A stretch of DNA of 64,000 nt, from assembly GCF_010365305.1 (NCBI RefSeq), contig NZ_CP048279.1, positions 744,001 through 808,000 of the forward strand. The letters are read 5' to 3'. The position numbers and the translations under genes were made by a program. The notes below the pieces were generated by a model. That model saw only the letters and a list, made by a program, of their open reading frames with translations. It searched no databases and was not told the origin of the DNA. This stretch comes from Staphylococcus sp. MI 10-1553. GTDB lineage: Bacteria > Bacillota > Bacilli > Staphylococcales > Staphylococcaceae. Positions 8,837-62,565 of this stretch are shown one piece after another (position 1 is the first letter of the stretch; every line of letters begins with the position of its first letter).

Positions 8837-10667
8837 GGGGCTGGGACGTAATTCCTGCCCTCTTCGCTAAAAAAGCTCTGATTAGATGTAAAAAAACATT
8901 TAATCAGAGCTTTTTTAGATATTATTTAAAAAAATAAAGCACTTCCTGTATAATTATTAATAACGACAAAAATAATAGACAGGGGTGCTTTATATGTATA
9001 AAAATTATAACATGTTTCAACTTACACTTCCAATAGAAACTGAGATGTCTTTTCCAGAAAATGATATTGTATTTATTATTAACAAACTTGTAGAATCTAT
9101 CCCCCAAGAAGCGTTTAATCCATATTATAGCCAAAGAGGTCCTTCATCATACCATCCAAAAATGATGTTAAAAATCATACTTTATAGTTATGCCCATTCT
9201 GTTTTTTCAGGACGAAGAATCGAGCATCTGTTAAAAGATAGTTGCCGAATGATGTGGCTTGCGCAAGGTCAAACGCCAACTTATAGAACCATCAATCGCT
9301 TTAGAGTGAACCCCCATATGATGGAATTTCTACATATTTTATTTGTCGGTTTAAGAGCACAGTTATTAGAAGATAAACTCATAACAGAGGATGTCATTTA
9401 TATTGATGGCACAAAAATAGAAGCAAATGCGAATAAGTACACATTCCAGTGGCTGGCTAATACGAAGCGTTTTAGTCAGTCTGTCATTGAAAAATCAACG
9501 GCTTTATATGAGCAACTCGTTTCTGAAGAGATTATTCCTGAAATCAAACGTGAATCTGGGCATGAATTAACAAGTGAAGAACTGAATCAAATAGAGACGC
9601 ATTTAGGTCATAAAAATGATGCGCTCACGTCTGAAATTGAAACGACTCAAGATGTAGAGACAAGAAAAACCCTTAGAAAAGAAAGAAGTAAGGTGAGACA
9701 AAGTAAGAAAGCCATCCAAGATTTTAAAGACCGTAAAATCAAATATGACAAGCAAATGGAAATTTATGGTGACAGAAAAAGTTATTCAAAGACCGACCAC
9801 GATGCGACCTTCATGAGAATGAAAGATGATCATATGAGAAACGGCCAATTGAAACCGGGTTATAACCTACAAATCGCAACCCATAATCAATTCGTTTTAG
9901 CTTTTGGTGTTTACAGTTATCCAGGTGATACAAGAACGCTCGAACCATTTTTAAAATCCATCCACAATTTATATGGTGACATTCCAGAGTATATTGTGGC
10001 AGATGCGGGTTACGGAAGTGAATACAACTATACCATGATACTCGATGAATTTGAGAAAACACCTTTAATCACTTATAGTATGTATCTCAAAGAGAAGCAG
10101 CGCAAATATAAAAACAATCCATTGATTACTGCTAACTGGGAATACCGTGAGATAGATGATTACTATATATGTCCTAACAAAAAGGAATTACATTTCCAAA
10201 GTTACAGAAAGAAAAGAGATGGATACGGTATTCAAAGAGATTTTAAATTATATGCATGTGAAGAGTGTGTGGGCTGTCCATTACGAAGTCAATGTATGAA
10301 GCAAAGTACGAACCCCAACACAAATAAACGCTTATTTAGAAATTTAACTTGGGACTATTTTAAAGCCTTCACAAATCAACAGCTTTCAGATCCAAAGACG
10401 AAACACATTTATCAAAAGAGAAAGATAGATGTTGAATCAACTTTTGGAAATCTGAAGGCTAATTTGGGTTTCCAAAGATTATCGGTTCGCACAAAATCAA
10501 AGGTTGAGTGTGAACTTGGCATCGCACTCATGGCAGTAAATATACGAAAACTAGCTAAAATAAGTGCTCGTTTTCGTTCGTTAATAAGAAAAAAGCCGTC
10601 AAATTCTAAAAAAATGAATTTTGACGTCTTTTTCTTAAAGGAGCTGAAGGTCTATGTCCCAGCCTTT
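8837..10667 (+). mobile_element. IS1182-family (IS1272-like) insertion sequence
   Basis: The left end holds GGCTGGGACGTA (from 8839). The right end, read on the minus strand, holds GGCTGGGACATA (outer end about 10664). These face each other as imperfect terminal inverted repeats about 1.83 kb apart, flanking one transposase gene. A perfect 16-bp hairpin follows the left end. Ends are placed from the repeat cores and may be off by a few bases. Confidence 0.7.
8869..8916. terminator. Hairpin/terminator inside the left end of the IS1182-type element
   Basis: AAAAAAGCTCTGATTA and TAATCAGAGCTTTTTT form a perfect 16-bp stem with a T6 tail just upstream of the transposase. It can stop transcription coming in from outside the element, a known way to keep transposase levels low. 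Confidence 0.7.
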
Positions 10668-13016: not shown

Positions 13017-13091
13017 TTGGGTTTATGGCAAAGGTTGTTTCATATACAAAAGAGATGTGGATGATCTTAAAATTGCTACTATCATGCTTCC

Positions 13092-13340
13092 TTTCCCAGG
13101 GCTGAACCTTCAACTCAATTCGGCTTAATTAAAGTGTATACGAGATGGAAGCCGAATTGGATTTTCCGGTTCAGCTGATCCCGAAATTCACCAATACTTC
13201 CTTACAAATGTCACAGTAAAATCTAAGGCTCTAGAAACGAGAGTTCATAATGACAATGATTACAATTCAACAAGGAATGAAAGTGAGTCAATTAAAATAT
13301 ATCGAGTAAGATAAGCGAAAAATTTTATGTCATATCCCTT
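13092..13340 (-). repeat. Dispersed hairpin repeat, copy A (rearranged)
   Basis: This is a member of the same repeat family as 30466-30815 and 42940-43290. The main hairpin (CAATTCGGCTT 13116-13126 with AAGCCGAATTG 13149-13159) reads in the reverse orientation. The following flank (CTAGAAACGAGAG, about 13232, to TTTTATGTC, about 13335) reads in the forward orientation. The core therefore seems inverted within its flanks. The rest of the 12976-13461 gap shows nothing else except the addB promoter. Confidence 0.6.
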
Positions 13341-21656: not shown

Positions 21657-21988
21657 ACTTTATTGATTGCTATTTTGGGTTCGCGTTCCTAGGCGCCTCA
21701 CTTCAACTAACCAACGTTTTGATTTTAGTGTTACATTTGTAGTGGAAGCGTTGGTTGTTTTTTAGTTTGGGCTCTATGCCTCAGGAGTCTCGCCCAGATT
21801 TGCAATCAAATAAAGTATCGATATTGAGTAGGAAAAGAATCGTTCTTGTAGTTATAAGAAGTGCGTCAATTTGAATAGTGGTGCGCAAATCATATGATGC
21901 GTCGATATTCATTTTCTGCATAATGATATGTGGTATGGAGTAAAGAGGGTTAAGGAGAAATTACTTTATTGATTGCTATCTTGGGACG
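21657..21988. repeat. Pair of 24-bp direct repeats framing repeat copy D
   Basis: ACTTTATTGATTGCTAT followed by (T/C)TTGGG occurs at 21657 and again at 21963, 306 bp apart, with one mismatch over about 24 bases. The first copy lies immediately left of the short hairpin repeat at 21684-21796. A near-palindromic partner of the second copy (AATAAAGTAA, about 22033) lies 60 bp farther on. The rest of the 671-bp gap has no convincing gene. Confidence 0.55.
21684..21796 (-). repeat. Dispersed hairpin repeat, copy D (short form)
   Basis: CGTTCCTAGG at one end and CCTCAGGAGTCTCG at the other are the same end sequences as in copies B and C, here only 113 bp apart. The conserved CTTCAACT and GGAAG elements frame a hairpin whose arms (AACCAACG 21709-21716, CGTTGGTT 21749-21756) differ from the AATTCGG arms of the other copies but still pair. 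Confidence 0.6.
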
Positions 21989-30322: not shown

Positions 30323-30465
30323 TGATCAAAGAAAGTTGTAATCGTGAAGCAAATAATGAACATAGGGTATATGGGACTAAAAAATTTTGATACTTGTCAT
30401 GTTCCTTATTCATAAATTTGTCCGCATTGATTCATTGTCTTTGAAATTCAATTGCCCAAATGGAC

Positions 30466-30815
30466 GAGACTCCTGAGGAAAAAGTAAAAAACAATATCAC
30501 GTCTAATCACTTTGATAGTGGTTACTGTTTATCGCAGTAGCTGTCTGACTTCTCAAAAGCATACGCATTGAGAAGTCAGACACTTTGTGTGTAGGCAGTA
30601 CTACGAAATCTTTGTGACACATGAGATTTCTGTACTGCGCCCAAAATCCAATTCGGCTTCCATCTAGTGAACCTTTCAATCAAGCCAAATTAAGTTGGAG
30701 GATCAGCCCCTAGGAAACGAGAGTCTATGATGGCAATTGTGAGCATTTAATAAGGTTATTAATGAGGGCGATTTGATTAAAATATATCAATCAAGACAAG
30801 CAATAATTTTTATGG
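30466..30815 (+). repeat. Dispersed hairpin repeat, copy B
   Basis: A long copy of the family. It runs from GAGACTCCTGAGG (30466) through three hairpins to CCCCTAGGAAACG (about 30708-30719) and a weaker shared flank ending near TTTTTATGG. The hairpins are GACTTCTCAA/TTGAGAAGTC at 30547-30577, GAAATCT/AGATTTC at about 30604-30630, and CAATTCGGCTT with a decayed AAGCCAAATT at 30649-30691. A stretch of about 69 bp is nearly identical to copy C. Apart from this repeat and the sapS promoter, the 30277-30947 gap has nothing recognisable. Confidence 0.7.
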
Positions 30816-30858
30816 TGCTTCTTTTCAATGTCATAAATATAAAAAATTAATAGAAATA

Positions 30859-42939: not shown

Positions 42940-43290
42940 GAGACTCCTGAGGGAATGAGTGCATACTGTTAACAGTCACGTCTTTACTTTGATAGTAGTT
43001 GCTGTTTATCGCAGTAGCTGTCTGACTTCTCAATACTTATGCTTTTGAGAAGTCTAGTCAGCCTTGCGGGGGTAGTACTACGAAATCTTTGTGACACATG
43101 AGATTTCTGTACTGCGCCCAAAATCCAATTCGGCTTCCATCTCATGTATGCTTCAATCAAGCCGAATTGAGTTGAAGGGCCAGCCCCTAGGAACGCGAAG
43201 CCATGATGGCAATCAAAAACACAAATCATAAGGAGGGCAAATTAAACAAAATACTGCATCAATAGCATCAAAAATTTTTATGTCCCATCT
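42940..43290 (+). repeat. Dispersed hairpin repeat, copy C
   Basis: A long copy running from GAGACTCCTGAGG (42940) to CCCCTAGGAACG (about 43184-43195), plus a weaker flank ending TTTTTATGTCCCAT. Its three hairpins have intact arms: GACTTCTCAA/TTGAGAAGTC (43024-43054), GAAATCT/AGATTTC (about 43081-43107), and CAATTCGGCTT/AAGCCGAATTG (43126-43169). The core is 256 bp here and 254 bp in copy B. Nothing else is recognisable between oppA and trpS (42686-43367). Confidence 0.7.
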
Positions 43291-43367
43291 CCTAGTCAGC
43301 CTTGCAACTTTACTTTTCTAAAATAATTATGAAGTATCCAAACTATTATGGAATTAAGTCATGCAAT

Positions 43368-48013: not shown

Positions 48014-48031
48014 AAAATGGAGGTCTTTTTA

Positions 48032-48694
48032 ATGAAGAAAACAATTGCAGTACTTGGTCTGGGGCTATTAGCAACATTTTTTGTAAGTAACGAATCTTAT
48101 GCCGCAGAAACGATTCAAAACAATACGTCATCAAGTGAAACGAATCAAAATTCAGATCAGGCACCGTTAGATCATTATATTCGAAAAGCGGATGGCACAC
48201 TGGTTGAACCGAACGTGTACCCACATAAAGATTATGTAGAGAATGAAGGACCTTTACCAGAGTTTAAATTTCGAGTTGACTCTAAGAAAGATTCATCTGA
48301 TTCAAATCAAGAGCCATTAGATCATTATATTCGAAAAGCGGATGGTACGCTTGTTGAACCGAATGTATATCCACACAAAGATTATGTCGAAAATGAAGGG
48401 CCTTTACCAGAGTTTAAATTTATGTATGCTGACAAACAAAATCATCATGACCAACAGAGTAAAAACAACAAGGATAAGCAGCGTGCAAATAACAGTGACA
48501 AAAAGCATAATGATCAGCCGAGTCATCCAAAAGCAGTCACGCCAGCTGCGCAACATGATAAAGCAGTAACTTCAAACGCTACTGTAAAAGAATTACCAAA
48601 CACAGGTGAATCTGATAAAACAAGTCAATTACCCATCGTATTATCATTGTTATCTGTGGGAGTTTTAGTTTTATTAAAAGCGAGAAATAAATAA
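48032..48694 (+). CDS. LPXTG-anchored surface protein with two 50-residue repeats
   Basis: The 220-residue protein has a signal peptide (cleavage near SYAA, residue 25) and two almost identical repeat units (EPLDHYIRKADGTLVEP then NVYPHKDYVENEGPLPEFKF). A basic, Asn/Lys/His-rich spacer follows. The sorting signal is LPNTG (188-192), hydrophobic helix and KARNK tail. Sortase A should attach it to peptidoglycan. The ATG at 48032 follows TGGAGG; the frame opens earlier at 48017. It lies directly after the protease gene and probably shares its transcript. The repeat was not recognised as a known domain. Confidence 0.85.
   Translation: MKKTIAVLGLGLLATFFVSNESYAAETIQNNTSSSETNQNSDQAPLDHYIRKADGTLVEPNVYPHKDYVENEGPLPEFKFRVDSKKDSSDSNQEPLDHYIRKADGTLVEPNVYPHKDYVENEGPLPEFKFMYADKQNHHDQQSKNNKDKQRANNSDKKHNDQPSHPKAVTPAAQHDKAVTSNATVKELPNTGESDKTSQLPIVLSLLSVGVLVLLKARNK
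48161..48421 (+). repeat. Two-copy in-frame tandem repeat (150-bp period)
   Basis: The units at about 48161-48271 and 48311-48421 encode the same 37-residue stretch, differing mainly at silent positions, and are separated by a 39-bp linker. Silent drift with conserved protein suggests selection on the repeat rather than a fresh duplication. Confidence 0.8.
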
Positions 48695-51901: not shown

Positions 51902-51909
51902 ATGAACAT

Positions 51910-52007
51910 GAAATTAATCACATTACAAACATACCCCTTTGTTTGAAGTGAAAAATTTCTCCCATCCCCTTTGTTTAGCGCCGTGTCAAAACACGGCGTT
52001 TTTTTTT
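51910..52007 (+). ncRNA. rsaE: Small regulatory RNA RsaE (RoxS)
   Basis: The sequence after the promoter matches RsaE as known from S. aureus. It starts GAAATTAATCACAT, carries the two CCCCTTTGTTT blocks and the single-stranded TCTCCCATCCCC segment that pairs with ribosome sites of target mRNAs, and ends in the terminator GCCGTGT/ACACGGC plus T9. About 98 nt. It lies downstream of pepF, its expected place. RsaE adjusts central carbon, amino-acid and respiratory metabolism. Confidence 0.9.
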
Positions 52008-61744: not shown

Positions 61745-61855
61745 AAAAAATAACCATCTCTAACTTTGACAGGTGAGATGGTTATTTTTTACCATTATAA
61801 CTATAGTCACCGTCTTTTTAACGGTCTCACTGAGGCAATGCACATCATGTGTGTT
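61745..61855 (-). ncRNA. Orphan SprF-like antitoxin RNA
   Basis: This sequence is a near copy of the antisense RNA region at 62284-62393 and reads leftward. The promoter is TTGTCG (61889-61884) and TATAAA (61865-61860), 18 bases apart. The RNA would contain the GGCAA.../...TTGCC hairpin and the ACCGT/ACGGT hairpin, ending in the terminator at 61745-61790. No toxin frame is present on the opposite strand here, so it appears to be an antitoxin gene without its partner. Confidence 0.6.
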
Positions 61856-62055
61856 GCCTTTTATACTTATAACATAGCACATGCGACAATTTTTGTCTAT
61901 GATCGAGATGTTTCTTATATCTCAAATTTTTTATTTCGAGATATAGGGGTGAAAAGATGAAAAAGTGATCATACAATGTGTCGATTCCATTGTTTTTTCA
62001 ACAATTCACCCTCACTTTTTAATAAATTAAATAAAAGTGTTTAGAAATATAATTG

Positions 62056-62084
62056 TAGACAAAGTAAAGTGGTGCCCATAAAAT
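62056..62084 (+). promoter_or_regulatory. Promoter of the SprG-like toxin mRNA
   Basis: TAGACA (62056-62061) and TAAAAT (62079-62084) are 17 bases apart, about 100 bp upstream of the toxin start. Confidence 0.55.
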
Positions 62085-62143
62085 AAAAGTGTGAGAAAGT
62101 TAGATGGATGGTGGCTATCTCGGTATAAAGAGAGGTGATGCGT

Positions 62144-62188
62144 ATGAGCGTATTATCAAAATCTTTAGAAAGGAGAAGCCTCGAATGA
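62144..62188 (+). CDS. 14-residue leader peptide overlapping the toxin start
   Basis: ATG 62144 follows GAGGTGA and encodes MSVLSKSLERRSLE, ending at a TGA that overlaps the toxin ATG-ATG. In S. aureus SprG1 a related stretch (KSLERR) is fused in frame to the toxin as a longer form. Here it is in a different frame and ends at the toxin start, so it may act as a coupling leader. Confidence 0.45.
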   Translation: MSVLSKSLERRSLE

Positions 62189-62292
62189 TGAGTGTAACAG
62201 ACACACTATTGCTGATGTTTGCTTTCGGTAATCTTATCGTAGCATTAATCAGTTTAGTCGTGTTTATCGCTATCAATGTTCAAAAAAAATAA
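62185..62292 (+). CDS. SprG-like type I toxin (holin-like membrane peptide)
   Basis: The 35-residue peptide MMSVTDTLLLMFAFGNLIV... ends in NVQKK. It has one hydrophobic helix followed by a short basic end, as in the SprG/TxpA/BsrG-type holin-like toxins (Hol_Tox family). GAAAGGAG (62168-62175) sits 9 bases before ATG 62185. A longer frame from 62104 exists but lacks a ribosome site. Such peptides insert in the membrane and stop growth when not silenced. The 3' end runs into the shared terminator with the antisense RNA. Confidence 0.75.
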   Translation: MMSVTDTLLLMFAFGNLIVALISLVVFIAINVQKK

Positions 62293-62393
62293 CCATCTCT
62301 AACTTTGACAGGTTAGATGGTTATTTTTTAACCAAACAATGAAGTCACCGTCTTTTTAACGGTCTCACTGAGGCAATGCACATCATGTGTGTT
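62284..62393 (-). ncRNA. SprF-like antisense antitoxin RNA
   Basis: On the minus strand TTGCCG (62427-62422) and TATAAA (62403-62398) are 18 bases apart and would start an RNA near 62391. It folds two hairpins (GGCAA/TTGCC around 62372-62396; ACCGT/ACGGT around 62347-62363) and ends at the terminator AACCATCT/AGATGGTT (62291-62322), which is also the toxin mRNA end. Convergent 3' overlap is the SprG/SprF arrangement. Confidence 0.65.
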
Positions 62394-62565
62394 GCCTTTT
62401 ATACTTATAACATAGCACATACGGCAATTTTTGTCTATTGTATTTTTTATGATGTTTCTGAAGTCAAATAAAGGAGATGTCTTAGATAGCAAGCTTCAAA
62501 CCATATAAAATGAATAAACTGTGAATCGTTTGCAGATGATACAATGCCTTGGTGTCACCATACAT
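62394..62565. other. Spacer after the toxin-antitoxin locus
   Basis: Contains the antitoxin promoter at its left end and then AT-rich DNA without a supported gene. Confidence 0.4.

Follow-up and report, generated by a model that had tools for sequence, protein, structure and literature searches.

What are the two intergenic regions, more than 12 kb apart, that share a hairpin-rich core in the 64,000-nt stretch of the Staphylococcus sp. MI 10-1553 genome analysed here (the window), and is it their structure that selection maintains? A sequence-only reading had taken them for copies (B and C) of a family of dispersed intergenic repeats. The family is real: a genome-wide search yielded 98 loci, so further copies do exist. 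The core, estimated at 254-256 bp, is indeed 254 bp long in copy C (42940-43193). Copy B opens with GAGACTCCTGAGG at 30466 and carries CCCCTAGGAA at 30707-30716, therefore its core (30466-30716) comes to 251 bp. The two copies match with an E value of 5.3e-65 and 86% identity over positions 32-251 of the query. The protein adjoining copy B is 96% identical to its counterparts in S. intermedius and S. cornubiensis, and 91% identical to that of S. pseudintermedius; judged by sequence comparison, the MI 10-1553 genome is a member of the S. intermedius group.

In the MFE prediction copy B forms a single nested fold of about 447 bp (approximately 30373-30819, plus strand), with z-scores of -3.8 on the plus and -3.4 on the minus strand, and none of 100 shuffled sequences folded as low on either strand. 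The weaker flank of about 100 bp noticed earlier around the core does exist, it consists, in fact, of the outer stems of this fold. From left to right, all on the plus strand, the left arm of the outer stem P0 (AATTGCCC...ATGGAC, 30450-30465), which pairs with 30723-30738 in the fold, is followed by the left frame (GAGACTCCTGAGGAA, 30466-30480, one mismatch to the frame motif), the hairpins HP1 (GTTACTG/CAGTAGC, 30521-30541), HP2 (GACTTCTCAA/TTGAGAAGTC, 30547-30577), HP3 (GCAGTAC..GAAATCT/AGATTTC..GTACTGC, 30595-30638) and HP4 (CAATTCGGCTT/AAGCCAAATTA, 30649-30692), the right frame (CCCCTAGGAAACGA, 30707-30720) and the right arm of P0 (GTCTATGATGGCAATTG, 30723-30739). Three hairpins had been counted originally; there are four, the additional one being the small HP1 ahead of HP2. 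A promoter scan at copy B gave no excess (4 found vs 2.9 expected).

The window contains further members. Copy C, also of the long form, extends on the plus strand from its left frame to its right end (TTTTTATGTCCCATCTCC) over 42940-43300, between opp and trpS; its left flank and its right part differ in origin. Copy D (approximately 21681-21791, minus strand) is a short form made up of the frame and one hairpin, and the degenerate copy A (about 13085-13330, plus strand) has a centre that is inverted relative to its own right frame and right shell. In the whole genome the 23-nt HP2 arm was found at 69 sites with at most three mismatches and the 15-nt frame at 81 sites with at most two, and the reversed-pattern control was 0 in both searches. 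Combined, they define the 98 loci: 51 have both motifs, 29 only the frame and 18 only HP2. The closest copies are 97% identical, the median identity is 81% (501 full-length pairs). No match was found among 72,556 plasmid and 50,697 phage records. At one locus (L133) two frame copies lie 293 bp apart (365665 and 365958) with identical flanks; here a degenerate element has been duplicated in tandem.

The anatomy was deduced from an alignment of 30 copies, from which one locus (L018) was left out, and then from that of the 98 loci. The constant part is the frame, GAGACTCCTGAGGGA ... CCCCTAGGAACGCGA, in which CTCC-T-(G)-AGGG and CCC-T-A-GG form a stem with the G bulged out, next to a fixed internal loop of GAGAC opposite AACGCGA. 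A kink-turn, judged by eye, does not fit this loop. The frame is flanked by stems whose arms vary from copy to copy while their complementarity is kept. The outermost stem (GGGACATAAAAATTTTTGATGC and its complement) is present in part of the copies only, and inside it comes a second stem, AACTTGCCCTC/GAGGGCAAGTT. P0 consists of GATTG.../...CAATC and a variable part, and is followed inwards by the left frame, the interior, the right frame and the mirror arms. The interior is modular, with either one hairpin or three extra ones. In the short form (18 of 76 copies, 99-111 bp from frame to frame) it comprises stem P2 and HP4; in most of the remaining copies (244-262 bp) HP1, HP2 and HP3 replace the left arm of P2.

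The loci occupy a characteristic position relative to genes, as estimated from crude ORFs of at least 90 aa without the use of annotation. More than half (54/98) are flanked by convergent genes, a share to be compared with 28 of 160 wide gaps in a 500-kb background taken from genome G074, and 5/98 lie between divergent genes, vs 35/160 in the same background. The right-hand gene faces the element at 85 of the 98 loci, at a median distance of 120 bp, and codirectional gene pairs show an orientation bias of 31 vs 8. Little or nothing of this bias is seen in G074 (9 vs 8 codirectional pairs) or in 13 loci of other Bacilli. Eight of the 98 cores overlap an ORF of at least 90 aa. The copies show no replichore bias.

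Is the fold selected? The arms of HP2 are indeed the same in both copies and the loops are not, which had been read as a sign of selection on structure. The argument itself fails: identical arms prove nothing, because no pair of HP1, HP2 or HP3 changed on both sides in the 29 aligned copies. The conclusion nevertheless holds in substance, since compensated changes were found in the stems around the frame and within it and in HP4. In the swap test the left arm of one copy was paired with the right arm of another in 2000 permutations; 22 of the 98 loci had no recognisable left or right frame, which left 76 for the swap and P1 tests and 74 for the P0b pair counts. P0 (0-24 nt from the frame) reached -15.5 kcal/mol with its own arms and -10.25 with swapped ones (sd 0.33), and the outer flanks (30-60 nt from the frame) -12.1 vs -8.1 (sd 0.38), both with 0/2000 permutations as low. 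HP4 (89 copies, nine loci excluded) gave -9.1 vs -5.3, again 0/2000. For P2 the result was 1/2000 in the 18 short copies, and its pairing was absent from 56 long copies (-4.03 observed, -4.33 permuted), therefore P2 belongs to the short form. In P1, T-A/C-G and C-G/T-A replacements are coupled within the genome with p values of 1.7e-5 and 8.5e-5, which, the copies being related, express an upper confidence. Between clades the same stem has A-T in all 12 Staphylococcus copies vs C-G in 14 of 17 copies of other Bacilli.

Those latter copies came from a wider search. A likeness to repeats of other Bacillales had been suspected, and it is genuine. Of 299 sampled Bacilli genomes, 101 contain the pattern GACTCCTGMGGGA and 31, spread over 11 families, have it in at least five copies; the reversed control gave at most one match per genome. 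Single matches include chance occurrences; that of locus L250 is presumably a 16S rRNA-like sequence. Loci of other families nest in the same manner (GTTGATTGgagcggaaggtgcGAGACTCCTGCGGGA...CCCCGCGGAAAGCGAagcatcctggagttccAATCAAC), and P0b pairing exceeds permutation in 17 such copies (1/2000) as well as, in an offset register, in 12 copies of other staphylococci (0/2000).

Among the loci scanned one Rfam family, tsr24 (RF02577), covers the frame, with 302 bits in other staphylococci. Its model, aligned to a frame locus (L296), shows the same internal loop and bulge. It resembles the MI 10-1553 repeats in the succession of P0, internal loop and P1 with a bulged G in the structure line of the model, and differs in that Rfam describes a single sRNA of S. 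aureus, not a repeat or the end of an IS. The tsr24 cut-off was exceeded in at least 28 of 61 Staphylococcus genomes, many of them with several copies; these counts are lower bounds, based on the best 29 candidates scored per genome, as are the counts for copies B and C from a first look (best 40). None of the copies in the window reached the tsr24 gathering score, and the MI 10-1553 genome has a single match (E 7.5e-4) among the matches listed. At gathering score, Rfam 15 detected nothing in eight Bacilli frame loci and only RsaE and rli28 in the window, both away from the repeats; at a lax threshold copy B gave only a chance miRNA match. The first of the two, RsaE/RoxS (RF01820, 90 bits), lies at 51908-52003. 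The rli28 match (62072-62258) falls in the spacer of a tandem duplication of about 540 bp (61745-62438; 96-nt and 47-nt blocks, two copies each, 98% identical), where G074 has a frame element. Another repetition, two 122-nt direct repeats that are 88% identical and 150 nt apart, was seen at 48150-48421 within the ORF 48017-48694. In other staphylococci an HP2/HP3-like module (L292, L299, L294) matches Rfam S35 (srn_0335) at 30-43 bits, the gathering cut-off being 69. Two loci (L295 and L299, in G020 and G067) have extra hairpins of about 60 nt within the internal loop or hairpin of the frame, i.e. one repeat inserted in the hairpin of another; we take these to be STAR-associated repeats.

A link of the frame to IS1182 emerged from two genomes with at least 17 (G064) and at least nine (G060) tsr24 matches of identical score. 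All 20 fetched copies were identical far past the frame, because each is the end of an IS of about 1.9 kb that encodes an IS1182 transposase of 559 aa (453 bits against a cut-off of 270). In Staphylococcus, 68 of 114 tsr24 matches lie within about 600 bp of an IS1182 transposase, vs two in the shifted control, the matches and the selected transposase places both being among the matches listed. In other Bacilli 16 of 121 frames adjoin such a transposase (shifted controls 0, 0 and 0), the 121 coming from ten of the 12 genomes searched for IS1182, with at most 13 per genome among the matches listed. In all 16 the transposase is on the left of the frame and antisense to it, so that the frame is just upstream of the transposase gene; in G276 this neighbourhood was found for all six frames among the matches listed. 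No transposase lies close to any of the other 105 listed frames; among the matches listed, six of the ten genomes lack this neighbourhood entirely. No IS1182 match was found in three frame-rich Bacilli (G125, G247 and G330) or in five Staphylococcus genomes with at least five frames. Over 61 Staphylococcus genomes the number of frames correlates weakly with that of IS1182 matches (rho 0.36, p 0.004), about equally to its correlation with the unrelated Y1 transposase (rho 0.38), and the association of presence and absence is not significant (25:5 vs 23:8). The repeats and autonomous IS1182 elements have a block of sequence and structure in common, as expected of an IS1182 derivative.

That the repeats were 'not a known IS' had been stated from the sequence. 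This is right for MI 10-1553, where transposase sequence or remnants were found at 0 of the 98 loci; it does not extend to other Bacilli, in which the frame belongs to IS1182-family ISs. The window itself contains an IS1182-family IS (8837-10664, plus strand; ends GGCTGGGACGTA...TATGTCCCAGCC, terminal motif GGCTGGGACRTA) with a transposase match at 8994-10661 in one open frame, apparently intact. The genome has eight intact IS1182 transposase genes among the matches listed, this one and seven outside the window, with 53-55% identity to that of G064. The frame is absent from the IS1182 copy of the window, which is a candidate source of transposase acting in trans. Ends of the GGGACATAA type occur on part of the MI 10-1553 copies: TTTATGTCCCA was found on the right in 24 of 76 copies, TGGGACATAAA on the left in 20 and both in 13 (wrong-side controls 2 and 1). 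A recognisable IS1182-like end is missing from about two thirds of the copies. Unlike members of the IS1182 family, the MI 10-1553 repeats possess the long-form hairpins HP1-HP3 and lack a transposase.

Comparison of orthologous sites showed that the elements come and go. At clpB, the site of copy B, no element is present in S. intermedius, S. pseudintermedius, S. coagulans or G074, and S. cornubiensis has a short element there whose interior differs. The site between opp and trpS is occupied by a long element in MI 10-1553 and S. pseudintermedius, and both G074 and S. cornubiensis carry a short one; four outgroup loci have no element there and a compact terminator instead. Nineteen MI 10-1553 loci could be located within a 500-kb part of G074; by the patterns used, the frame was present there at nine and absent at ten of them. 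Two sites of the window that are empty in MI 10-1553 carry elements in G074. Compact hairpins were seen at empty sites, in G074 at L161 (-14.3) and L205 and in MI 10-1553 opposite a G074 element (-19.1). Replacement of a hairpin by the element fits three site comparisons and the opp-trpS outgroups. It does not fit clpB, where the terminator persists beside the insert and was therefore not replaced; the junctions are known more coarsely than to one base. At shared sites the G074 copy was closest to its MI 10-1553 orthologue in just two of ten comparisons, therefore modules have been exchanged among copies.

A conserved frame that adjoins the IS1182 transposase gene in other Bacilli makes the repeats probably a transposase-less relative of these ISs. 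We consider it probable, with considerable room for doubt, that they derive, as solo and MITE-like elements, from the end region of IS1182-family ISs. The frame would be the structured stretch between the outer inverted repeat of the IS and its transposase gene, antisense to that gene, and in the S. intermedius group it may have multiplied alone, acquired the extra hairpins of the long form, given here as 251-262 bp between the frames, and kept swapping modules to this day. The most economical account is a MITE-like IS1182 end moved, now or formerly, in trans by the hairpin-replacing reaction proposed for IS1272. According to PMC5678879, IS1272 (a member of the IS1182 family) replaces inverted repeats without target duplication, and hairpin sites serve as its targets; the repeats would likely have spread by the same structure-dependent transposition. 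A terminator, the usual target in this account, would lose its hairpin to the element, whose own arms would then stand in its place. Selection on the fold, with loop and bulge conserved and stems varying in a matched fashion, would follow if the IS1182 transposase that may move the MI 10-1553 copies reads folded DNA. The strong orientation bias in MI 10-1553 is not explained by an IS1182 origin, and we count it against this interpretation, together with the missing frame in the IS1182 copy of the window, the weak correlation with IS1182 matches, the many frames and copies that lack an IS1182 neighbour or end, and the surviving terminator at clpB.

The main rival is a host function adopted by the ISs: an RNA or terminator element, similar to tsr24, useful to the host in termination or in the protection of 3' ends, and captured by ISs, whose transposase gene it would protect from read-through. 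It would account for the position after genes and the enrichment between convergent genes, for the listing of the relative tsr24 as an sRNA, for the place of the frame, which separates the IS end from the transposase gene and could usefully block read-through there, and for the terminator-like hairpins counted on the two sides among 76 loci (minus strand 35 left and 22 right, plus strand 22 left and 6 right). An element kept for its service to the host should, however, be more stable than the nine to ten division over the 19 loci placed in G074, and its G074 copy should be nearest its orthologue more often than in two of ten cases. Folding of the whole element shows no strand preference either (minus lower in 32/76). 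Among pairs, P0b leans to the minus strand (48 A-C vs 22 G-U, in related copies), HP1-HP4 lean to the opposite one (64 G-U vs 40 A-C), and P1 pairs are mixed. On balance we regard a host origin as unlikely, yet worth keeping in mind.

Template switching is a mechanism that operates in hairpins and corrects quasi-palindromes, and it could have matched the arms of long hairpins in place of selection on the fold. The match of arms as far as 30-60 nt from the frame and the inverted interior of copy A, as expected of hairpin-driven rearrangement, would agree with this. A blind correction should, however, close the mismatched loop GAGAC/AACGCGA and the bulged G, and both have been retained, in the copies as well as across families of the class, which makes it doubtful that template switching is the whole story; as the sole cause of the matched arms it appears distinctly improbable. 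It is very hard to believe that a Y1 (RAYT/IS200-type) transposase mobilises these repeats in the manner of REP elements, in spite of 13 Y1_Tnp matches in MI 10-1553 and the weak correlation with frame number (p 0.003), because Y1_Tnp matches are lacking from eight of 19 Staphylococcus genomes rich in frames, the matches in G074, G015 and G065 are broken or partial, and the constant neighbour of the frame elsewhere is IS1182. Five of the 13 matches are equal in score, which represents an IS200-type expansion.

By description the repeats resemble BOX, REP and bcr-type bacterial repeats, which are modular, hairpin-forming and intergenic. The STAR motif TNTGTTGNGGCCC was found on neither strand of the 98 loci. 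STAR elements are likewise dispersed intergenic repeats of staphylococci; they differ in that S. pseudintermedius is reported to have none (PMC3532100). The stem-loop families Bhal-1, Sta-1, Sta-3 and Sta-4 of Petrillo et al. 2008 (74-136 bp, 24-46 copies; PMC2267715), compared by description only, are similar in being intergenic stem-loop repeats, in B. halodurans and S. aureus. The literature covered, a partial selection, yielded no description of the present family, which does not prove that there is none.

A broader generalization of the IS1182 reading is possible, and we put it forward tentatively, as something we would sooner doubt than assert: the mobile unit may be the fold and not the sequence, an IS1182-type transposase recognising the folded frame and exchanging it for gene-end hairpins across Bacilli, with tsr24 as one such IS end. 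Even without that generalization, one probable origin, the ends of IS1182-family elements, can be assigned to an annotated sRNA family and to a class-wide intergenic repeat. Hairpin-replacing transposition, hitherto argued from IS1272 in S. aureus, could be tested on hundreds of natural insertions, and should the fold be what the transposase recognises, the copies would offer ready variants for studying how it reads structure. The ends of genes in these bacteria would be, in part, remodelled by mobile DNA.
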